A stretch of DNA of 36,563 nt, taken from positions 1 to 36,563 of IMG/VR virus record IMGVR_UViG_3300031730_000015; one strand, written 5' to 3'. This DNA is from a virus. A program made the position numbers and the translations under genes. Position 1 is the stretch's first letter; the number at the start of each line of letters is the position of its first letter. The notes below the pieces were generated by a model that saw only the letters and a list, made by a program, of their open reading frames with translations, searched no databases and had not been told where the DNA came from. Below, piece after piece: positions 1-36,563 of the stretch.

Positions 1-156
1 GCCACCGCCGCCGCCGCCGCCACCGCCTACGCCGCCGACGACGCGCGTCGCGTGATCCGTACTCAAAAGCTGAGAGAGATGTACCTGGACCTCCTCACGA
101 AGGTAACGGCCAATGCGAGCGAAGCTCGCGAGGCGGAAGCGACGGTAGCAACGTGA
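1..156 (+). CDS. C-terminal end of an unknown Ala-rich early protein (5' truncated)
   Basis: The frame is open from base 1 to a TGA at 154-156. It encodes an Ala-rich tail that begins on a run of GCC/ACC codons and continues with [16 protein letters not shown] and then a short amphipathic helix. The stop overlaps the GTG start of the Bet gene (GTGA), so it belongs to the same operon. Its composition fits the missing C-terminus of the protein begun at 35980. I infer that the two are one gene split by the contig ends in a low-complexity GCC tract. Function unknown. Confidence 0.6.
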
Positions 157-1061
157 GCGCTATTGTTCATTCGCAGTCGCAGGACTGGTCGCGCGACCAG
201 ATGGACCTGATCAAGGCCACGTTTGCTGCGGGCACGACAGACCACGAGTTCCAGTTGTTCGTGCAGACGTGCAAGCGCCTGGGGCTCGACCCGTTCGCGC
301 GTCAGGCATTCTGCGTGAAGCGCGGCGGGGTTGCGCAGACGCAGGTGTCAATCGATGGCCTCCGCGTCGTTGCCGAACGCTCGGGCGAATACGAGGGGCA
401 GACTGCCGCGCAGTGGTGTGGCAAGGACGGCGCCTGGCGTGACGTCTGGCTGGAGGGTGCGCCGCCCGCCGCCGCACGCGTGGGCGTCTATCGGCGCGGT
501 CATCGCGAGCCGATGTACGCCGTGGCTCGGCACGTGTCGTTCGCGCAATCGTCCACGACTTGGACGAAGATGCCCGACATCATGCTCGCGAAGTGCGCGG
601 AGGCGCAGGCGCTACGCAAGGCGTTCCCGCAGGACCTCTCGGGCATCTACACGCCCGATGAGATGGGGCAGGCCGAGAACGATCCCGAGACGCAGCCTAT
701 CAGCGCTCCGCTTGCCACGTACGCACATGGCCCCGAGGAGCGCGAGCGATCGCAGAAGCAGAACGCGTCGCGACCGAGCATCGACGAAGCGAAGGCCACG
801 GCGGACGGCTGGATCAACACGTTCCGAACGTTCGTTCACGTGGACGAAGTCGTCAAATGGCTGCCGACCATGATCGGCGCGTGGGACGTGAGCGACAAGC
901 GGCACCGAGGGCGCGTCTACAAAGCGTGCCTCGCGCACGTCGAGACGGGCATCGTCGAAGGGCTGAGCGACATCGGCCTCAAGGAAGCGTGGGAATACCA
1001 CCTTGGCATCGCGCGCGGGACGATTCCGACGGCGGTCGTCGAAGCGGAGGTGATGACGTGA
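153..1061 (+). CDS. bet: Phage recombination protein Bet (RecT/Redbeta family)
   Basis: A 302-residue single-strand annealing recombinase. Family members coat ssDNA and anneal complementary strands during phage recombination and concatemer formation. The core has the Bet hallmarks GLDPFARQ (residues 44-51), QVSIDGLR (64-71) and [13 protein letters not shown] (147-159). The last ~120 residues are an extension with no recognised domain. The start is GTG at 153, overlapping the previous stop. It is the third gene of the rightward early operon if the ends are joined. No exonuclease partner of the Exo, RecE or YqaJ type is recognisable next to it, so it may work alone or with a host nuclease. Family assignment is firm; the partner question is open. 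Confidence 0.93.
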
Positions 1062-1588
1062 ACATCGCAGAGCGTCAACGCCAGTACGCGATCGGCGAGC
1101 AGGTCGGCATGATCACGTTCATCGGCGACGGCACGAAGAAGCTGCGCCGCTGCGAGATCACCGAAATCCACGGACGCGGTGCGAAGGTGAAGTTCCTTGA
1201 GGGCTCCAAGGGCGGCGCGTTCGTCTTCTGGAACCAGATCGAGAAGCTCGAAGGTGCATCGCTGCCCGCGCGCGTCGAGCCGCCTGCTCCACGCGAGCCC
1301 GTCATCCTTCCGCCGCCGCCCGTGGTGCTGCCGAAGGTCGCACCGAAGATGAAGCCGGCGCGCGTCGGCGCCACCTCGGACGATCTCGATGCGCTGATTC
1401 AGATGGCGAACGAGGTCGCGAACGACATCGCCGTGCAGCAGGCACAGCGGTTCGCGCAGATCAAGGCGCTCGAAGCCGAGGCGAAGGCTATCGCCGACGA
1501 GATCGAGCGGCTGCGTGAAGAGCACAGGCAGACGCACGAGCGCACCGAAGCGCTTCGCAAGCTCGGTGCGATGCGGGAGGGCGCATGA
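1058..1588 (+). CDS. Unknown early protein: small beta N-terminus plus coiled coil
   Basis: Starts at GTG 1058, which overlaps the Bet stop (GTGA), and ends in an ATGA overlap with the methyltransferase start. The product is 176 residues. Residues ~13-65 are short alternating beta-like segments with basic residues, compatible with an SH3- or KOW-like fold. Residues ~70-95 are a Pro-rich linker. Residues ~105-170 are a charged heptad-like coiled coil ([15 protein letters not shown]). I do not recognise the family. Placement directly after Bet suggests an accessory recombination or DNA-binding role, but that is inference. An upstream in-frame start would run inside bet and is unlikely. Confidence 0.75.
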
Positions 1589-2871
1589 GCGGCCTCATGG
1601 TCGATCTCTTCGCGGGCGGTGGCGGCACGTCCACGGGCATCGAGCAGGCGCTCGGTCGTTCGCCCGACATCGCCGTCAACCACGACCCGATCGCGATCGC
1701 GATGCACGAGCGCAACCATCCGCGCGCGTTGCACTTCTGCGAATCGGTCCGCGTGCTGAAGCCGCTCGACGCGACGGGCGGACGTCCGGTGTCGCTGCTC
1801 TGGCTCTCCCCCGATTGCACGCACTTCTCGAAGACGAAGGGCGGGAAGCCGCGTGACGCCGAGATCCGATCCCTCGCCGAGGTGGGCATCGATTGGGCGA
1901 AGGACACGCGGCCCACCGTCATCATCCTCGAGAACGTCGAGGAGTTCGTAGGGTGGGGACCGCTCGACGTGCACAACTACCCGATCAAGGCGCGCGCAGG
2001 CGAGATGTTCAACGAGTACGTCTCCAAGCTCCGCGCGCTCGGCTACGCGGTCGAGTGGCGTAATCTCGTGGCGTGCGACTACGGCGCGCCGACGAATCGC
2101 AAGCGCCTGTTCCTGATCGCACGTTGCGACGGCCACCCCATCGTGTGGCCGACGCCCACGCATGGGCCTGGACGCGCACCGTTTCGGACGGCCGCCGAGA
2201 TCATCGACTGGTCCCTCCCGTGTCCGTCCATCTTCGAACGCCCGAAGCAGCTCGCCGAGAAGACGCTCCAGCGCATCGCGCACGGCGTGCATCGCTACGT
2301 GCTCGGCACCGATCGGCCGTACATGGTCGGCGACCACGCTGCCGCCACGCTCGTGCACTCGGGCAACGGTGAGCGCACGGGACAGACGCCGCGCACGTAC
2401 GACCTGCGCAAGCCGCTCGGCACCGTCGTCGCAGGCGGCGTGAAGCATCGTCTCGTGGCTGCGTTCATCACGAAGCACTTCGGAGGCGTCGTAGGTCACG
2501 ACATGCATCGCCCGGTCGGCGCCGTCACCGCCCGCGACCATCACGCGCTCACGGCGGCGCTTCTGTCCGAGGGGGCTCACGAGGCTGCGGTGCGTGAGCT
2601 ACTCGCGCGCTTCCCGGCTGAGGAGCGCTACGCACGTCCGCTGTTTGGCGCGGGGGTCACGATTACGGATATCGGCTCGCGGATGCTCAGGCCGCGCGAG
2701 CTGTTCAACGCGCAGGGCTTCCCGTCGTCGTACGTCATCGACCTCGAAGTGAACGGGAAACGACTCACCGCAGAGCAGCAGACGCATCTCGCAGGCAACA
2801 GCGTGCCGCCCGTGTTCGCGGAGCGACTCGCGGCAGCAAACGTTCTCGAACGACAGGAGCGTGCAGCGTGA
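1585..2871 (+). CDS. C5 cytosine-specific DNA methyltransferase
   Basis: A 428-residue DNA (cytosine-5) methyltransferase that would transfer a methyl group from AdoMet to cytosine in a specific site, probably to protect phage DNA from host restriction. Visible motifs are I (DLFAGGGG, residues 7-14, AdoMet binding), the catalytic loop with Cys78 in SPDCTHFSK, VI (LENVEEF, ENV ~116-118), an NRKRLF segment near 178 and X (GNSVPP, ~404-409). The catalytic motif reads PDC-T-H-FS instead of the usual PPCQ-FS. A similar variant is known in phage enzymes. Start ATG 1585 has GGGAGG upstream and a 4-base overlap with the previous gene. No cognate restriction enzyme is adjacent. Confidence 0.93.
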   Translation: MSGLMVDLFAGGGGTSTGIEQALGRSPDIAVNHDPIAIAMHERNHPRALHFCESVRVLKPLDATGGRPVSLLWLSPDCTHFSKTKGGKPRDAEIRSLAEVGIDWAKDTRPTVIILENVEEFVGWGPLDVHNYPIKARAGEMFNEYVSKLRALGYAVEWRNLVACDYGAPTNRKRLFLIARCDGHPIVWPTPTHGPGRAPFRTAAEIIDWSLPCPSIFERPKQLAEKTLQRIAHGVHRYVLGTDRPYMVGDHAAATLVHSGNGERTGQTPRTYDLRKPLGTVVAGGVKHRLVAAFITKHFGGVVGHDMHRPVGAVTARDHHALTAALLSEGAHEAAVRELLARFPAEERYARPLFGAGVTITDIGSRMLRPRELFNAQGFPSSYVIDLEVNGKRLTAEQQTHLAGNSVPPVFAERLAAANVLERQERAA

Positions 2872-3101: not shown

Positions 3102-3457
3102 AGCTCCCTATCCTCCTCCACGCAGTTACCTCCGACGACGGCAAGCGGTGCGCGCCGGAGTGTATGCACCGAAATGGTGCGGACGACCTCTGCGAGGCAC
3201 TCGGACGGTCAATAACGTTCGACGGTGATGTGGGTGCGTGGGTTCGCGCCGACGCCTGCATCGCCGCGTCCGCCGCTGCCGTGGAGCACGCAGGAATCGC
3301 GATGTGCGACGTGGTCGATCTCGTTCAGGAGCACCTCGGACGAGCCGAAGCCGCGCGATTTCAGGAGGCGATCGAGGCGACGGATGGGCGCACCATCCCA
3401 CCCGTCGCGCTCGAGCCCACCATCGAAGGCGGCCGTGGGCTGGGCGGCGAGCGATGA
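3098..3457 (+). CDS. Hypothetical early protein, 119 aa
   Basis: Starts at ATG 3098 inside the stop of the preceding gene and ends in an ATGA overlap with the excisionase start. It has a Cys/His-containing N-terminal third (CAPECMHRNGADDLC, residues ~18-32), which may bind metal, followed by an acidic helical part. I do not recognise a family. It sits between the methyltransferase and the integration module in the rightward operon. Confidence 0.7.
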   Translation: MKLPILLHAVTSDDGKRCAPECMHRNGADDLCEALGRSITFDGDVGAWVRADACIAASAAAVEHAGIAMCDVVDLVQEHLGRAEAARFQEAIEATDGRTIPPVALEPTIEGGRGLGGER

Positions 3458-3771
3458 GCGCCGCTCGCCGCCCTACGCCGCTCGCAACGCAGTCGGAAGC
3501 GGCGGCGTACCTGCACCTCAGCCTGCGCGGCTTCTATCGGCACGTTGCCGGGAAGCTCGGACGCATCCGCATCGGCGGCCGTTGGATGTACGAATACGAG
3601 GACCTAGATCGATGGCTCGCCACGCAGAAGGTTGGACCCTCTACACCGACCCCCGTAACGGGTTCCAGATCTGCCGGTTCACGTGGCAAGGGAAGCGCCA
3701 CAACATCAGCACGCGCGAACGAGATCCTGCGAGCGCTTCGGAAGCGGCAGCCCGTATCTACGCCGACGTGA
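3454..3771 (+). CDS. xis: Excisionase-like helix-turn-helix protein (MerR/HTH_17 type)
   Basis: Starts at ATG 3454 (ATGA overlap) and encodes 105 residues. Residues ~10-57 match the small winged HTH found in excisionases: ATQSEAAAYLHLSLRGFYRH, then a wing with RIGGRW and a closing DLDRWLA. The remaining ~48 residues are a basic, low-complexity tail. It lies immediately before the integrase and overlaps its first 160 bases in another frame, so both are made from one transcript. It probably biases integrase towards excision by bending attP/attR DNA. A role as a small transcription regulator cannot be excluded. Confidence 0.8.
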   Translation: MSAARRPTPLATQSEAAAYLHLSLRGFYRHVAGKLGRIRIGGRWMYEYEDLDRWLATQKVGPSTPTPVTGSRSAGSRGKGSATTSARANEILRALRKRQPVSTPT

Positions 3772-4757
3772 TCGCTGGTCGTGCGGTGGCATCGCAGCGC
3801 CGCGCTTCGAGCATCGGTCCCACGGTCAGCGAGATCGCCGCCCTGTGGGCGAACGGTCTTCGGCTCTCTCCCGAGACCGTCGCGGTCTATGCGATGTATG
3901 CGCAGTCGATCTGGAACGAGCACTTCCGGATGATGGACGCGATCGACGACGCTTCGGTCTCCACGTACATCATCACGCGCCTTGGTTGCGTGACGCGCTC
4001 GACGGTCTGCAAGGAGCTGTCCGCGCTCCGGGGCTTCCTGCGGTGGTGCAAGGTGCACGGCCACCTGAGCGTCATCCCGCACATCGAGAGCCCGCCTGCG
4101 AGCACTACGGGCACGCGGAGCCCCATGGGCACGCGGCAGACGGTGGAGCTTTCGGAGGAGGAGCTAGACCGTGTGCTCGAAGCGATGCCGGAGCGCACGG
4201 GCGGTGGACGCGGGGGCAATCCCGCGCGCGCGTTCTTCACAGTGCTCGCCGAGACGGGGCTACGCCGCTCGACGCTCTTCCGTCTGCACGCGCCGGGCGA
4301 CTACTACCCGGGGCGCTCGACGCTCCGGATACGTGGCGAGACGGACAAGGCGCGCTTCCACCGCGAGGTAGCGATCACCGCACGAGCTCGGGCCGTGCTC
4401 GACGCCGTGTGCCCCGAGGTCGGGCCGATCTTCAAGCGCGTGGACTACCGGGAGACGATTCGCCGTGCGGGCCGCGATGCCGGGCTCGAACCGCATCGAG
4501 CAGCGCGCCTGAGCTTCCACGACTTCCGGCACGCCCGGACGACGCACCTGCTCGAGCGCACGAAGAACCTGGCCGGCGTCGCGTATCTGCTCGGGCACAC
4601 GAATATCACGACCACAAACCGCTACGTCCGCCCCAACCAGCGGGCAGGCGAAGCGGCCCTAGCCGATGCATTCCGGCCACCAAGTGGCCACCGCGCGAGA
4701 ACGACGTCGAAGACGAAGAAGAAGCCGAAACCGAAATCGCCCCGTGGGAAAGCCTAG
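3612..4757 (+). CDS. int: Tyrosine recombinase, phage integrase
   Basis: A 381-residue site-specific recombinase for integration and excision at a tRNA-Leu gene. The start ATG 3612 is chosen because GWTLYTDPRNGFQIC onward reads as an N-terminal arm-binding domain. Longer upstream readings run through the excisionase. The catalytic set is complete: Arg218 (ETGLRRS), Lys246 (ETDKARF), His303-x-x-Arg306 (FHDFRHA), His329 (LLGHTN) and nucleophile Tyr338 (NRYV). A very basic tail (KTKKKPKPK) ends it. The TAG stop at 4755-4757 directly abuts the attP core. Confidence 0.96.
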   Translation: MARHAEGWTLYTDPRNGFQICRFTWQGKRHNISTRERDPASASEAAARIYADVIAGRAVASQRRASSIGPTVSEIAALWANGLRLSPETVAVYAMYAQSIWNEHFRMMDAIDDASVSTYIITRLGCVTRSTVCKELSALRGFLRWCKVHGHLSVIPHIESPPASTTGTRSPMGTRQTVELSEEELDRVLEAMPERTGGGRGGNPARAFFTVLAETGLRRSTLFRLHAPGDYYPGRSTLRIRGETDKARFHREVAITARARAVLDAVCPEVGPIFKRVDYRETIRRAGRDAGLEPHRAARLSFHDFRHARTTHLLERTKNLAGVAYLLGHTNITTTNRYVRPNQRAGEAALADAFRPPSGHRARTTSKTKKKPKPKSPRGKA

Positions 4758-28884: not shown

Positions 28885-29303
28885 CGCTTCTTCTCCTTCG
28901 GCGCGCGTGGCGCCTTCGCTTTCGGTGGTGGGTCAGGGAGCACGAATACCGTCACGCGAATGCCGGGCTCGTCGTGTGTCCACAGGCGCTTGACGTGCAG
29001 CTCGTCGATCTGGGAGTCGTCGTCCCAGACGATGCCGTTGAGGGCGTCACACGCTTGCTTGGCGATGTTGTCGAGGTCGGTGCGGCCACGCGTTGGGAAC
29101 GCGGCTTCGATGGCCACGAAGTAGCGGAGGCCGCGTATCCATCCGCTCGGGAGCGCTGCAACGGCCGAGAGCGCCACGAGGTTGCGATACGCGGCGCTCG
29201 TCGGGTCCACGAACGTGAAGCCCTTGCCGCGCGCCGCTCGCTTCCACGAGCGCGGGTTGCCGGGGACGTGGAACGTCAGAGCGGGCGGTCCGATGTGGCT
29301 CAC
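28881..29303 (-). CDS. rusA: RusA-family Holliday junction resolvase
   Basis: 140 residues from ATG 29303 (ATGA with DnaB). RusA resolves four-way junctions after recombination, and in phages also branched DNA before packaging. Family marks: FHVPGNPRSWKR (11-22), the acidic active-site cluster DLDNIAK (76-82), DALNG (86-90) and DDDSQI (94-99). A basic tail ends it. With Bet it gives the phage annealing and resolving functions. Confidence 0.93.
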   Translation of the reverse strand: MSHIGPPALTFHVPGNPRSWKRAARGKGFTFVDPTSAAYRNLVALSAVAALPSGWIRGLRYFVAIEAAFPTRGRTDLDNIAKQACDALNGIVWDDDSQIDELHVKRLWTHDEPGIRVTVFVLPDPPPKAKAPRAPKEKKR

Positions 29304-30739
29304 CGCTCACCGTCCCAGGGCTCGCCGTCGCCGTCCTCGCCCCGCATGCGCGCATCGGGCCGGTAGCCGTACTCGTCCACGAAGCGCGTGCATTCACCCT
29401 CGAAGCGGCAGTGCACGGTGCCCGTCGAGCCCGCGCGCAGCTTCGCGATGATCACCTCGGCTTTGCCGTCGTCGTCGCCCGCCTCGATCTCGCTCTTCGA
29501 CCACTTGTCTTCCTTCAGGCGACCGGCCTTCTTCTCGGCCGCGTAGTAGCCGCGTCGGTAGACGAAGAGCACGCCGTCTGCGCTCTGCTCGATCTCGCCC
29601 GAGTCACGCAGGTGATGCAGCGATGGGCGCTTGTCGCCCGTCTTCTCGCACTCGCGGTTGAGCTGGGAGAGCGCGAGCACGGGGCACGCGAACTCCTTCG
29701 CGATTTCTTTCAGCGCCCGCGCGATCTCGCTGATCTCCTGCTCGCGTGAGTCCGTGCGCATGCCGCTGCGCATGAGCCCGATATGGTCCACGACGATGAT
29801 GCCGAGCTTGATCGCGCTCTTCGCGACGGCGCGACGAAGACGTGCGCGGAGCTGCGGGATAGACAGGCCCGATGTCTCGTCGATGAGCATCGGCATCGAC
29901 TGCATCTCGGTCGCGGCAGCGCTCACCAGCGGCCAGTGTCCGGCCTGGAGCTTGCCCGTGCGGATCGCCGACGCGGGCACGCCGCTCGCGAGCGAGACGT
30001 GACGCTCCTCGAGCTCGAGCTTCGTCATCTCGAGCGAGAACACGGCCGCCATACGGTCGCCGCCCTTCGCTACCGCTCGAGCAGACGCGAGTGCGAGCGA
30101 CGTCTTACCCATGCCGGGGCGCCCGGCGAGAATGTACAGGCAGCCGTCGTTGTAGCCGCGCAGACGCTCGTCGAGCGCGGTGAGTCCTGTCGGTGACCCC
30201 ATGGGATAGACCTTTCCGGTGGCGATGTCTTCGATGCGCTGAAGCGTGGGGATGGGGTTGATGCGCTCGAGCGAGCCCTCGGCCCGCAGGCTGATCGTCG
30301 CTTCGAACACGCGTTGCTGCGCCTCCTCGAGGAACGCTTTCGTGTCGTGCTTTCGGTCGTAGCCGCGTCCGACGAGATCGTGCATCACGCCGATCAACGT
30401 GCGTCGCTGGGCGAGCTCGATGATCTCGCGGGCGTGGAGCTCGGGCTCGCACGACGGGAGCACGCTGTTCGTGATCGCGAAGAGCGTCTCGTCGCCGCCG
30501 ATGGGCGCGAGCTTCCCGGTGCGCACGAGCTCGTCGCGCACGGTCACGTGGTCCGGCGTGAGTCCTCGTGCCTTGCAGCCGAGGATCGCGCGCCAGATCT
30601 GTCCGTACGAGTCGCCGTAGAAGTGCTCGGGTTTGAGCGTGTCGCACATGTCGAGCGCCGATGCGTCGATGAGCACGGCCGCGAGCACGGCGCGCTCGAG
30701 GTCGAGCGAATGCGGCGGGAGGCGCATGACGTCGATCAC
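29300..30739 (-). CDS. dnaB: Replicative DNA helicase, DnaB family
   Basis: 479 residues from GTG 30739 (GTGA overlap). N-terminal DnaB_N domain (SLDLERAVLAAVLID, 11-25) and RecA-like C-terminal motor: Walker A GRPGMGKTS (206-214), Walker B IIVVDH (314-319), SQLNRE (358-363) and the DSGEIEQ sensor (379-385). The Walker B reads VDHIG where many have IDYLQ. The acidic, Gly-rich tail is short. It would unwind DNA at the phage fork, loaded by the organiser encoded just upstream. Confidence 0.95.
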   Translation of the reverse strand: MIDVMRLPPHSLDLERAVLAAVLIDASALDMCDTLKPEHFYGDSYGQIWRAILGCKARGLTPDHVTVRDELVRTGKLAPIGGDETLFAITNSVLPSCEPELHAREIIELAQRRTLIGVMHDLVGRGYDRKHDTKAFLEEAQQRVFEATISLRAEGSLERINPIPTLQRIEDIATGKVYPMGSPTGLTALDERLRGYNDGCLYILAGRPGMGKTSLALASARAVAKGGDRMAAVFSLEMTKLELEERHVSLASGVPASAIRTGKLQAGHWPLVSAAATEMQSMPMLIDETSGLSIPQLRARLRRAVAKSAIKLGIIVVDHIGLMRSGMRTDSREQEISEIARALKEIAKEFACPVLALSQLNRECEKTGDKRPSLHHLRDSGEIEQSADGVLFVYRRGYYAAEKKAGRLKEDKWSKSEIEAGDDDGKAEVIIAKLRAGSTGTVHCRFEGECTRFVDEYGYRPDARMRGEDGDGEPWDGER

Positions 30740-31680
30740 GCGCTCGCCTCTGCTCTGGCTACGCCCTTGCGGGCCGCTCGCAGCCGCTCCACGGCATCAC
30801 ATTCCGAATCCGTGCCTCGGGCCGCTTCGAGCGCGGCAGAGGCGTCGGCGAGCTCCTGGCGCGCAGGAGACAGCACGGGGGCAGGCATCGTCGCGGCCGG
30901 TGGCGCGCTCGCGCTCGTCGGACCCTGCGTGAGCAAGCGCACGCGCTCGCTCACCAGCGCCCCGAGCTTCGCGCCGCCCTTGCGGCACCAGTCGTCGGCG
31001 AAGAACGCGTCGAGCAGCCTCGGGGCATCGGCGTCCGTGGTCTCACGAGCGAGATCGAGCCAGGGACCGCCGCCCATCGGCTGCGTGGCCTGGCCGTGGG
31101 GCACGATGCCCGGGAGCGCCACGGCGAAGCGCTCGAGGTAGCCCAGTCGGAGCCGTTCGGCCCTGGTCGCGGCTGGGCTCTTGGGCGGAGCCTCGGCTAC
31201 GCGCACCGAGAGTGCGTTAGCACTCTCTCCGGGTCGGGTCGGGTCGGGTCGGGTCGGGACCGAGATTTCCCTCGGCCCTTCCCCGGTGCGTCCCCCCGTT
31301 TGTCCCCGGGGGACATTGGCCGGGACACCCTCACGCGCGTCCCTCTGTCGCTTCTTCTTGTCCCGCTCGTGTTCCCTCTTCCGCTCGACGCGTTCCTTCA
31401 TTGCCTCTGCCTGGTGGTGCGCGTAGTCGTGGATCTCGAAGTGGTCTCCGCAGTCGATCCACAAGCCCGGCACGAGCTCGTCAGTGAAGGTGGTCATCTG
31501 CTTCGAGGTCCATCGCCCGTGGTGGTTCAGAGAGGCAACCAACGCCTTCTCAATGCGCCCATCCGTGACCGCGCGATTCGCGAAGTGCAGTCCGTTCGAC
31601 CACAGGCGATACGCGCCATCGGACAAGCGGAGGAGCTTCGGGTGGAGCGGCATCGCGTCCTCTGTGCGGACCCACGTCAT
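30736..31680 (-). CDS. Replisome organiser-like protein (winged-helix initiator/loader)
   Basis: 314 residues from ATG 31680 (TGATG). The N-terminal ~100 residues carry the pattern seen in phage initiators: MTWVRTEDAMPLHPKLLRLS, AYRLWSNGLHFANRAVTDG. A Lys/Arg-rich linker follows, then a Pro/Thr repeat PTRPDPTRP (~160), and a helical C-terminus with FFADDWCRKGGAK. Adjacent to DnaB, it probably binds the origin and loads the helicase. The gene contains a hairpin and G-tract (31208-31258), a candidate origin. A start further upstream would run into unrelated sequence. Confidence 0.78.
   Translation of the reverse strand: MTWVRTEDAMPLHPKLLRLSDGAYRLWSNGLHFANRAVTDGRIEKALVASLNHHGRWTSKQMTTFTDELVPGLWIDCGDHFEIHDYAHHQAEAMKERVERKREHERDKKKRQRDAREGVPANVPRGQTGGRTGEGPREISVPTRPDPTRPGESANALSVRVAEAPPKSPAATRAERLRLGYLERFAVALPGIVPHGQATQPMGGGPWLDLARETTDADAPRLLDAFFADDWCRKGGAKLGALVSERVRLLTQGPTSASAPPAATMPAPVLSPARQELADASAALEAARGTDSECDAVERLRAARKGVARAEASA
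31208..31258. repeat. Hairpin plus G-quadruplex-type tract in the replication gene
   Basis: A perfect 8-pair stem GAGAGTGC-gtta-GCACTCTC (31208-31227) is followed by six GGG runs at exact 5-base spacing (31231-31258, units GGGTC). Downstream is a palindrome TGTCCCC-G-GGGGACA (31301-31315) and a second GGGACA at 31322. The whole set could be an origin or its control. Confidence 0.65.
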
Positions 31681-31793
31681 CAGTACTTCCCCCCAACGGC
31701 CTGACGTGCCGTTCTCTGACGCTCGAGCATGTCGAGGACCTCCTGTGCGCGCGCGATGGTCTCTGCGGGTGTGAGCGGGCGCGGGCGGCTCAT
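31680..31793 (-). CDS. 37-residue microprotein
   Basis: ATG 31793 overlaps the upstream stop (ATGA), and the TGA overlaps the next ATG (TGATG). The product, opening MSRPRPLTPAETIARAQEVL, is mostly one helix. Its place in the unbroken overlap chain supports it; there is no other evidence of function. Confidence 0.55.
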   Translation of the reverse strand: MSRPRPLTPAETIARAQEVLDMLERQRTARQAVGGKY

Positions 31794-32074
31794 GCGTCAC
31801 CGCGCCCGAGCGCGAGAAGGAAGAGCACGCAGCATGTGGCGTGCGCGAGATGCGGCAGACCTGTCTCGGGATCGGCGTGCTGTCCGCCAAACCACGCTAC
31901 GAGATGGCGCTGCGTCGCGGCGAAGTAACGCTCGCGCGCATTCGGCACGAGACGCCAGTTGCCCTCGCCGTACTTACGTGCCCCGAAATCGAGTACGGCG
32001 ACGACGTCACCGAGCGCGTTCCACGGAACGAGATGCCACGGGGCCTTACCCGTGTCGTCCTTGCGACCGCTCAT
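31790..32074 (-). CDS. dATP/dGTP diphosphohydrolase-like protein (DUF5664 type)
   Basis: 94 residues from ATG 32074 (ATGA with a frame of the upstream gene). It has the family pattern: KDDTGKAPWHLVPWNAL near the N-terminus, FGARKYGEGNWRL (30-42), RYFAATQRHLVAWFGG, and DPETGLPHLAHATCCVLFLL at the end. Proteins of this kind in phages are linked to purine nucleotide hydrolysis for modified-base pathways. Here no partner PurZ-like gene is seen. Activity is inferred from family. Confidence 0.78.
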   Translation of the reverse strand: MSGRKDDTGKAPWHLVPWNALGDVVAVLDFGARKYGEGNWRLVPNARERYFAATQRHLVAWFGGQHADPETGLPHLAHATCCVLFLLALGRGDA

Positions 32075-34523: not shown

Positions 34524-34529
34524 GTACCA

Positions 34530-34558
34530 ACGCTACATGGTTGACACTACAGCGTCAA
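34530..34558 (-). promoter_or_regulatory. Leftward promoter with two tandem operators
   Basis: Minus strand: -35 TTGACG (34558-34553), 17-base spacer, -10 TAGCGT (34535-34530), ending six bases before ATG 34523. Operators ACGCTGTAGTGT (34555-34544) and ACCATGTAGCGT (34541-34530) match ACGCTGTAGCGT at 11 and 10 of 12 positions and are 14 bases apart, covering both promoter boxes. Confidence 0.75.
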
Positions 34559-34570
34559 GGCACTTAGTTA
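34541..34570 (+). promoter_or_regulatory. Rightward promoter for the XRE gene
   Basis: A perfect TTGACA -35 (34541-34546) overlaps the leftward -35 in the same operator. A weak -10 TTAGTT (34564-34569) or TAGTTA (34565-34570) follows at 17-18 bases. This makes one switch with back-to-back, mutually exclusive promoters. Confidence 0.55.
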
Positions 34571-34603
34571 ATCCAGGCGTGCGATTGCACCTAGATACAG
34601 CGC

Positions 34604-35050
34604 GTGCACTCTACGGAGATGAAGAGCGAAACCCCGCAAAGGCCCGACATCGGACCGCGCCTGGTTCAGGTCGCCCTCGACGCTGGCTACAGCATGAGCA
34701 GCCTCGGAAGAGCGCTCGGGGTTGCAAATACGACCGTCGTTGCATGGAAGAATGGCAGCGAGCCGCGCGTTGCGTTTGTGGACCGGGTCGCGGTCCTAGC
34801 GGGGAGCTCTTTGATGTTCATCATTCGTGGTGTCCGCGAAGCGGACGTGGGTGCGCCACCTCCGGAGCTGGGGGAATGGCGCGATCGCATGGCGCCGGCC
34901 GACGTGACCGACGCCGAGCTGGCGACGCTTGCAAGCGTCCGGTTCGCCGTTCAGCACCCGGGGCCGCAGTGGTACGCGTTGGCGCTGGCGGGTATACGCT
35001 CGAGCCCGGTGTCGATGGCTACGGAGATCCGGAAGCGCGCGGCGCGCTAG
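34604..35050 (+). CDS. XRE-family HTH protein, candidate lysogeny repressor
   Basis: 148 residues from GTG 34604, or 143 from ATG 34619; neither has a well-placed ribosome site. The HTH lies at about residues 20-66: QVALDAGYSMSSLGRALGVA, TTVVAWKNGSEPR and a VAVLAG end. No cleavage-type peptidase domain follows; the C-terminal ~75 residues are helical. It faces the Cro-like gene across shared operators. The TAG stop shares the CTAG with the stop of the convergent lipoprotein gene. Repressor function is inferred from position. Confidence 0.78.
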   Translation: MHSTEMKSETPQRPDIGPRLVQVALDAGYSMSSLGRALGVANTTVVAWKNGSEPRVAFVDRVAVLAGSSLMFIIRGVREADVGAPPPELGEWRDRMAPADVTDAELATLASVRFAVQHPGPQWYALALAGIRSSPVSMATEIRKRAAR

Positions 35051-35559
35051 AAGCCGAAGCAGTCGCCAACGTCGGCGAATAGCTGGGCGCGGTCGAGATC
35101 GCAGTCGGCCTTCTTCGTGCCCGTCAACATGTGACACGGCTCCGCGTCGGCGCATGGGTACGCCGCGTCATATGCTGCGTCACACGCATCAAACCCAGCC
35201 GGGTCACAAGTCTCGGCGTGGTCGGTGTAGCAGTCGTATCGCTGACCTTCGACAGACAGCCGGCAGGCGGTGAGTTCCTCGAACCGAGGGTACAGCGCAC
35301 CGACGTCGAGGACACAGAGCTCCTCCGCGGCGGTCAACGGGGCAATGTTGTCCGATACACATGCCTGCTCAGACGGGTATTCGTACGCGGCCCAGAAGCA
35401 CGAACAGTCCGCCGCGTCGGCCAGGTCGCTCACTTCCGATCCTTGGATGAGGAGGAGACCTGTGGCGCTCTCGTCTGACGAACAGGCCGTGATGAGCAAT
35501 ACGAAGGCGGCTCCAAAGCGTGTGCGCATACGGGAGTCTCGCGCGATTTGCGTCGCCAT
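35047..35559 (-). CDS. Cys-rich secreted lipoprotein, possible lysogenic-conversion gene
   Basis: 170 residues from ATG 35559, favoured by AAGGA six bases upstream; ATG 35529 would give a shorter signal. The signal ends in the lipobox I-T-A-Cys26 (FGAAFVLLITAC), followed by SSDES. Some fifteen Cys are spread through the mature part (DCSCFW, PCADAEPCH, KADCDLD), typical of disulphide-rich exported proteins. It is convergent with the XRE gene and lies beside the operators, the usual place for genes expressed from a prophage. Function unknown. Confidence 0.75.
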   Translation of the reverse strand: MATQIARDSRMRTRFGAAFVLLITACSSDESATGLLLIQGSEVSDLADAADCSCFWAAYEYPSEQACVSDNIAPLTAAEELCVLDVGALYPRFEELTACRLSVEGQRYDCYTDHAETCDPAGFDACDAAYDAAYPCADAEPCHMLTGTKKADCDLDRAQLFADVGDCFGF

Positions 35560-35571
35560 GTCGATTCCTTG

Positions 35572-35600
35572 TTGACGCTGTAGCGTTGACGCTGTAGCTT
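35572..35600 (+). promoter_or_regulatory. Early rightward promoter with two tandem operators
   Basis: -35 TTGACG (35572-35577), 17 bases, -10 TAGCTT (35595-35600). Operators ACGCTGTAGCGT (35575-35586, perfect palindrome arms) and ACGCTGTAGCTT (35589-35600) are 14 bases apart, the same spacing as at 34530-34555. GGAGG (35609-35613) and ATG 35621 follow. Likely controlled by the same repressor as the leftward operon. Confidence 0.75.
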
Positions 35601-35620
35601 CTGGGCTCGGAGGCGAGACC

Positions 35621-35983
35621 ATGGACCAGGCACAACGGACCCGCGATGACGTAGAACTGCTGGCGCTTCAGGCGAAGCACGCCCAATCGAAGGGCGTCAT
35701 GAGCGCGCTCACCGGCATCGAAGCTGGGCAGCGCGTGCGATTCGCACTCGGCGCGTTCGGCGACCAGGTGGAGGCGACCGTCGAGCGCGCGACGCACGCG
35801 GGGACGACGTCGCTGATCGACGTGCGCTTCGACGACGGCGTCGAAGGGCTCGCGTGGACGACGCCGGGGCTCGGCGGGCCGCGCTTCGTGCGTATGGGCT
35901 GGGTGCGCCCGAGCGACATCGCGAGCGTCGTCGTCCTCGCAGACGCGACCGACCTCGACGACGAAGACGAGGTGGCGGCATGA
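35621..35983 (+). CDS. First gene of the early rightward operon, 120 aa
   Basis: ATG 35621 with GGAGG seven bases upstream, ending in ATGA with the next gene. An N-terminal helix (DVELLALQAKHAQSKG) is followed by a compact beta part (QRVRFALGAFGDQVEATVER, LIDVRFDDGVEGLAWTTPG) and an acidic tail. The beta part could be an SH3-like fold. No family recognised. Its place directly behind the operator-controlled promoter means immediate early expression. Confidence 0.75.
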   Translation: MDQAQRTRDDVELLALQAKHAQSKGVMSALTGIEAGQRVRFALGAFGDQVEATVERATHAGTTSLIDVRFDDGVEGLAWTTPGLGGPRFVRMGWVRPSDIASVVVLADATDLDDEDEVAA

Positions 35984-36563
35984 GCGCGATCATCTTCACC
36001 GCCCGCGTGGGCGCGTTCGGTCGGCGCGCTGCGTCGCATCTCATTCGCGTCACGAAGACCGGTAGCGTCACCGTCTCGGACGGCTCGCGTTTTACCCGCG
36101 ACCACGACCTGTCCGCGAAGCAGGTGGAACGTGTGCGAGCACTCGCCAACGCGAGCCGTGTCGCTGCGGGTGCAACGGCACCGAGTGCGCCCGCGATGAC
36201 GCGTCACGAGCTGATCGCGAAGCTGCAATCGTTCCACGCGTGCGACGAGTCGATTGCATGGTTGCGTGCGCAACCGTTCGCGACTGCGGCGGAGTGTTGG
36301 GCGGCGTGCGAACGCAGCGAGTGGATGTTGTGGCTCATCACGCCGCATCGCATCGCGTTCGACAAGAGCGTCTACGTCGGGCTCGCCTGCGACTTCGCGG
36401 AGCGCGTGCTGCCGATCGGTGAGGCGTGGTTCGAGAAGAACGGACCCGAGCACTCGAAAGCCGCTCAGGAGCTGATCGCCGCGATCCGTGCGGGAACCGT
36501 CACGGAAGCGCACCGCCAAGCGGTGTGGGCTGCGCGACGCTTCGCGTGGGATCGTAACGCCGC
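35980..36563 (+). CDS. Early protein truncated by the window end
   Basis: Open from ATG 35980 (ATGA overlap) to the window end, 194 codons, no stop. An N-terminal beta part (TKTGSVTVSDGSRF) is followed by a Trp/Cys-rich helical region CDESIAWLRAQPF, AAECWAACERSEWMLWLI and FAERVLPIGEAW. This CxxxxxWL and W-xx-C-R-xx-W-MLWL pattern recurs in phage and actinobacterial/myxobacterial hypothetical proteins with long Ala-rich ends. The fragment at 1-156 supplies just such an end. Probably one ~245-residue protein. Confidence 0.7.
   Translation, partial: MSAIIFTARVGAFGRRAASHLIRVTKTGSVTVSDGSRFTRDHDLSAKQVERVRALANASRVAAGATAPSAPAMTRHELIAKLQSFHACDESIAWLRAQPFATAAECWAACERSEWMLWLITPHRIAFDKSVYVGLACDFAERVLPIGEAWFEKNGPEHSKAAQELIAAIRAGTVTEAHRQAVWAARRFAWDRNA

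Follow-up and report, generated by a model that had tools for sequence, protein, structure and literature searches.

The question raised by this locus is whether one type of binding site, present as a tandem pair at the start of two operons that leave the same region in opposite directions, serves as the genetic switch of a temperate phage. The DNA analysed (the window) is the whole of virus record IMGVR_UViG_3300031730_000015, 36,563 bases with a GC content of 67.7%, and probably belongs to a temperate phage of Sandaracinus-like myxobacteria. With a probability of about 80%, we believe that the region is the immunity region (the lysis/lysogeny switch) of this phage, that it follows the plan of lambda in mirror image, and that both of its regulators act on both pairs of sites (Table 1).

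Table 1. Features of the window on which the argument is built (positions in the window).
Feature	Position	Strand	Remarks
O-left 1, candidate operator, ACCATGTAGCGT	34530..34541	-	10/12 to consensus; contains -10 TAGCGT
O-left 2, candidate operator, ACGCTGTAGTGT	34544..34555	-	11/12; beside and partly over -35
O-right 1, candidate operator, ACGCTGTAGCGT	35575..35586	+	12/12; perfect 5-2-5 palindrome
O-right 2, candidate operator, ACGCTGTAGCTT	35589..35600	+	11/12; contains -10 TAGCTT
Predicted leftward promoter, TTGACG-N17-TAGCGT	34530..34558	-	-35 TTGACG 34558-34553, -10 TAGCGT 34535-34530; cf. homologous locus L111 (TAGCGT, N17)
Predicted rightward promoter, TTGACG-N17-TAGCTT	35572..35600	+	-35 TTGACG 35572-35577, -10 TAGCTT 35595-35600
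Cro-like HTH regulator, 79 aa	34284..34523	-	first gene of leftward operon; PHROG_35 and phrog_9425 repressor families
XRE-type regulator, 148 aa	34604..35050	+	N-terminal HTH, short C-terminal domain; homologues in L111 and L116
Lipoprotein ORF	35047..35622	-	probable start 35559, lipobox ITAC
DnaB helicase and replication-initiation protein	29300..31890	-	leftward operon
First gene of rightward operon, 120 aa, no assigned function	35621..35983	+	GGAGG precedes start
Second gene of rightward operon	35980..36563	+	extends off contig end
RecT-like annealing protein	153..1061	+	phrog_2780, E 6e-61; rightward operon beyond contig break
DNA methyltransferase	1585..2871	+	rightward operon; 54% identical to L116 methyltransferase
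Integrase	3225..4757	+	phrog_1, E 1e-33; end of rightward operon

All four sites resemble a 12-bp palindrome, ACGCT-GT-AGCGT. In each tandem pair the sites start 14 bp apart with 2 bp between them, and the left pair is read on the minus strand, the right pair on the plus strand. The original prediction had given the positions, the numbers of matches to the consensus (10, 11, 12, and 11 of 12), the 14-bp spacing, and the overlap with promoters, and every one of these was exact. Single-site matches are at chance level, but the pairing and the position of the sites are above chance. Nine 12-mers with at most two mismatches are found in the window, 5.6 are expected, and 14 of 100 shuffled sequences reach nine; four further matches with two mismatches lie at positions 2263, 2793, 5336, and 30236. 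If each site may carry at most two mismatches and a pair at most three in total at a spacing of 14 bp, the window contains no other pair, and 200 Markov shuffles produced none. At 23 of 29 positions, the right element (29 nt) is identical to the left one (the best match in 60 shuffles was 17–21). A third site per operator, sought at two mismatches, was not found. The scan for the 12-mer proposed with the original prediction is thus divided in its outcome: single sites occur elsewhere, which counts partly against it, and pairs are unique in the window, which counts for it.

Both pairs overlap a TTGACG-N17-TAGC[GT]T promoter in identical register, with the upstream site at the -35 hexamer and the downstream site containing the -10 hexamer. 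By hand, the hexamers match the sigma-70 consensus at only 8 of 12 positions, and a promoter scan with a threshold of 9 of 12 listed neither promoter. Because the match to the consensus is weak, our promoter calls are based on position and comparison, not on consensus strength. The spacing of the sites and the promoter layout are connected: TTGAC and TAGC are 9 bp apart in one unit, and the 23-bp offset between -35 and -10 minus these 9 bp gives 14 bp, so that each repeat unit supplies one promoter element.

The gene content agrees with the idea that the leftward operon is lytic and the rightward operon early. In the leftward operon the Cro-like HTH gene is followed by genes for an HNH protein, an MT-A70 protein, a replication-initiation protein, and DnaB, and then by terminase, portal, structural, and other genes; replication, terminase, portal, and structural genes support a lytic role. 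The reading of the rightward operon as an early recombination/integration operon is supported if the genome is circular or permuted, which it probably is, being merely interrupted at the contig ends. Beyond the break, in the left part of the contig, the plus strand encodes RecT, then a Gam-like protein, the methyltransferase, and the integrase. Positions 1-155 in frame 1 (stop at 154-156) resemble, when read by eye, the C-terminal end of the second rightward gene. Both contig ends (36540-36563 and 1-30) fall into a GCC-rich run within what appears to be a single gene, and it is likely that the assembly broke there. Joining the ends directly is out of frame, so some bases must be missing at the junction, whose sequence was not recovered; a search for a terminal repeat in the window found none. 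That the rightward operon reaches RecT and the integrase hence assumes a circular or permuted genome, and continuity across the break is something we infer.

Between the two operator pairs lie the XRE gene and the lipoprotein gene. By position, the XRE protein is CI-like. A Pfam scan of it gave only a weak HTH match and no S24/LexA-type self-cleavage domain, with about 70 aa remaining. AlphaFold models from single sequences were too low in confidence to be of use (pLDDT 46 and 47 for the two regulators). The Cro-like ATG lies 6 nt past the -10 hexamer (TAGCGT-N6-ATG; 34524-34535), hence the gene is probably leaderless, and its L111 homologue also appears to be leaderless (TAGCGT-N7-ATG). It had been proposed that expression of the XRE and lipoprotein genes continues when both operons are shut. 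This part of the proposal is unsupported since the sites overlap the likely promoters of both genes: the XRE gene has a sole good -35 candidate, TTGACA at 34541-34546 on the plus strand, which overlaps the site at 34544-34555, and the stretch immediately upstream of the lipoprotein gene is taken up by the right pair. For the XRE gene, autoregulation is at least as likely as staying on. The lipoprotein itself is cysteine-rich, its gene is absent from the L111 and L116 loci, and weak similarity to it is found in two genomes of the family (G152 and G383). It is a candidate lysogenic conversion gene.

Does the same arrangement exist in other phages? A search with the Cro-like protein in 379 genomes of the phylum led to L111 (in G347), and a search of the family with the L111 protein led to L116 (in G180). 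L111 lies in a 9.4-Mb genome of the phylum and L116 in a 10.3-Mb genome of the same family; both are Polyangia, and both loci are apparently prophages. Like the window, they have divergent Cro-like and XRE genes around a gap with 12-bp 5-2-5 palindromes. Unlike the window, their half-site is ACGGT instead of ACGCT, their cro-side sites are 34 instead of 14 bp apart, and they lack the lipoprotein gene. The Cro-like proteins at the same place are 39% (L111, over 61 residues) and 33% (L116) identical to that of the window. XRE proteins are only 22–28% identical across loci; that of L111, encoded divergently from the Cro-like gene, resembles the window's XRE protein in its C-terminal part (28% over 110 residues). 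The L111 operon beyond the XRE gene ends in an integrase. In L116 the Cro-like and XRE homologues are accompanied by MT-A70 and replication-initiation homologues, which lie downstream of cro; the opposite side carries a methyltransferase with 54% identity to the window's.

The gap between the Cro-like and XRE genes contains ACGGCGTACCGT (8518) and ACGGTGTACCGT (8552) in L111 and ACGGTCCTCCGT (10483) and ACGGTCGAGCGT (10517) in L116, 34 bp apart in each case, and the palindromes have the forms ACGGT-GT-ACCGT and ACGGT-CG-ACCGT (ACGGTNNACCGT). The L111 cro promoter reads TTGCGC-N17-TAGCGT-N7-ATG, compared with TTGACG-N17-TAGCGT-N6-ATG in the window. On the far side of the L116 XRE gene are ACGGAGCACCGT (9799), ACGGTCGACCGT (9814), and ACGATCGACCGT (9858), so that palindromes flank this gene on both sides; the second L111 cluster (9114, 9129) has imperfect sites that do not qualify as palindromes by our criterion. 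Site spacing in these loci is thus 34 bp on the cro side and about 15 bp on the other. To quantify the clustering we counted 5-2-5 palindromes with an ACGNT half-site (over 18 kb for L116) and shuffled the gaps by composition in 2000 trials. In L116, five of six such palindromes fall within 285 bp flanking the XRE gene (shuffled mean 0.022; 0 of 2000 reach five). In L111, three of five fall in the short gaps, a number never reached in 2000 trials (shuffled mean about 0.02). Across these loci, the site type is conserved with one symmetrical change of the half-site, from ACGCT to ACGGT. The presence of such sites at matching places in independent prophage loci also bears out the claim that both operon starts share a site type.

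The two regulators may have changed together with their sites. Recognition-helix residues of the Cro-like and XRE proteins are RWQT and RWQT in L111 and RWAT and RWQT in L116, both with half-site ACGGT; in the window they are FYTT and ANTT with half-site ACGCT, and only TT is common to both helices. In the more distant locus L139 (4201-5000) the stretch PNSVYRYERG is present in both the Cro-like and the XRE protein, and copies of a 13-mer, CGTACTAACCGAT, lie on either side of the XRE gene: the same plan with a different operator. We therefore suggest, tentatively and at less than even odds, that in a family of Polyangia phages the CI-like and Cro-like helices are matched and change together with the 12-bp operator (ACGGT with RWxT, ACGCT with xxTT), the pair spacing shifting by about two helical turns, from 14 to 34 bp. 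This proposal draws on three to four loci.

Other searches returned no close relatives. In viral contigs there was none for the XRE protein or for DnaB, the L111 proteins and the Cro alignment retrieved nothing from viral sequences, and the operator-pair pattern had no match in viral and genome collections (84,980 genomes in the genome set). A tblastn search of phage records yielded nothing beyond general DnaB matches, weak terminase relatives, and matches confined to the HTH. The Cro-like match in L004 is fortuitous, the protein being of a different kind, and most further XRE homologues are chromosomal regulators. Among them, L132-L138 and L143 are chromosomal XRE proteins of related genomes with the same HTH and short C-terminal domain; the phage repressor may descend from, or have founded, a host regulator family. 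A terminase relative in G359 (35–38% identical) was set aside, the early part of its region having no homologous Cro/XRE pair. This region (G359:C1:950000-970000; L110, L153) is phage-like: it encodes a portal protein and further structural proteins homologous to those of the window phage but has a different early region, and suggests module exchange between late and early genes.

How would the switch work? The XRE protein (in the role of CI) and the Cro-like protein (in the role of Cro) would bind the 12-bp palindromes as dimers. The left pair would cover the leftward promoter (cro-like, replication, packaging, and structural genes), which would play the role of pR, and the right pair the rightward promoter (RecT, methyltransferase, and integrase), in the role of pL. 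Bound protein would block RNA polymerase at both promoters, the two sites of each pair being placed at the -35 and over the -10, respectively. In the lysogen, the XRE protein would silence both operons; once the prophage is induced, the Cro-like protein would occupy the same sites and lower its own promoter and that of the repressor. Spacings of 14 and 34 bp differ by about two helical turns, so two proteins bound to a pair would be on a similar side of the helix. The sites, their pairing, the gene content, and the recurrence of the palindrome type in homologous loci are observed; which protein binds, whether as a dimer, that it represses, and the role of each promoter we infer. Shared control of both operons is well supported. 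The original prediction was of one repressor for both operons; the site type is indeed shared by both starts, but there are two candidate proteins for it, the XRE and the Cro-like protein.

We favor the immunity region because the pairs are unique and beyond chance, the operon content is like that of lambda's two early operons, the same palindrome type occurs in the same gaps of L111 and L116, and helix residues are shared within loci. Against it stand the divergence of the XRE proteins (22–28%), window helices that share only TT, weak promoter hexamers, the imperfect second cluster of L111, and the missing third site. One could also argue that only the Cro-like protein binds the sites and that the XRE protein acts elsewhere, for example at GTGCGATTGCAC, a near-palindrome at 34579-34590 just upstream of the XRE gene, which would make the sites an autoregulatory and lytic-stage device and not lysogenic operators. 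The Cro-like gene does begin at the left pair, and the Cro-like proteins are the better conserved regulators across loci (39 and 33%). But sites like GTGCGATTGCAC are about as frequent as chance predicts (14 against 13.4 expected) and are not repeated at the right operon, and the recognition helices of both regulators are alike within L111, L116, and L139; we consider this explanation unlikely.

Two further explanations dispense with phage repressors altogether. The repeats could be duplicated promoter elements (TTGAC...TAGC), arisen by a 14-bp slippage at the right promoter, the left element being similar only through shared -35 and -10 hexamers. With TTGAC and TAGC 9 bp apart, a 14-bp copy automatically yields the 23-bp offset of a promoter with 17-bp spacing, and single sites are not enriched. 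Conservation, however, spans the whole palindrome, including bases outside the hexamers, and the homologous loci retain the palindromes and not the TTGAC/TAGC layout, some sites being off the hexamers (10483 in L116, 8552 in L111), which makes duplication very improbable. The idea that these are sites for a nucleoid protein or a regulator of the host, which the presence of same-family XRE proteins at chromosomal loci in related bacteria might suggest, is hardly credible given that the paired operator is absent from the 84,980 genomes and that changes in the sites accompany changes in the adjacent phage regulators.

If the immunity-region reading is correct, the region works like that of lambda and has its layout. 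In lambda, the repressor gene lies between two operators, one for cro, replication, and late genes and the other for recombination and integration; each operator has three 17-bp sites 23–24 bp apart, cro is divergent from the repressor gene, and there is a rex gene. Here, too, the Cro-like gene is divergent from the repressor gene with operators between them, the same operators precede another early operon, located beyond the repressor gene (also in L116), and replication genes are on the cro side, recombination and integrase genes on the other (given continuity across the break). The lipoprotein gene is in the position of rex but on the opposite strand, reading away from an operator. In contrast to lambda, the sites are paired 12-mers 14 bp apart, the 148-aa repressor has no detected S24 self-cleavage domain, and the cro-like gene is apparently leaderless. 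That the 14-bp spacing is unlike lambda had been pointed out correctly, but it is not a fixed hallmark, as the spacings of 34 and about 15 bp in the homologous loci show.

A second comparison is with mycobacteriophage BPs, whose small repressor gp33 recognizes a 12-bp palindrome, CGACATATGTCG, with good and degenerate copies paired at several promoters, 5–8 bp apart or 17–20 bp from start to start; immunity is integration-dependent, and the attachment site is inside the repressor gene (PMC4557955). Our phage shares the pairs of 12-bp palindromes at several promoters but has 2 bp between copies instead of 5–8 bp. Its integrase gene (3225-4757) is far from the repressor gene.

The switch is ordinary in kind: paired 12-bp palindromes are already known from BPs, and this phage is a new example. 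To our knowledge, no genetic switch has been worked out for any temperate phage infecting Sandaracinus-like myxobacteria, and a brief literature search for prophage repressors in Myxococcota found none. The locus provides an operator that can be tested, along with two candidate regulators and two variants found in nature. Switches of this kind also prompt one to ask how a prophage is induced when its short repressor has no self-cleavage domain. Of most interest is the possibility that regulators and operators change together across these phages. If true, the matched change of helix and operator would be a natural series from which to read how a phage changes its immunity type.
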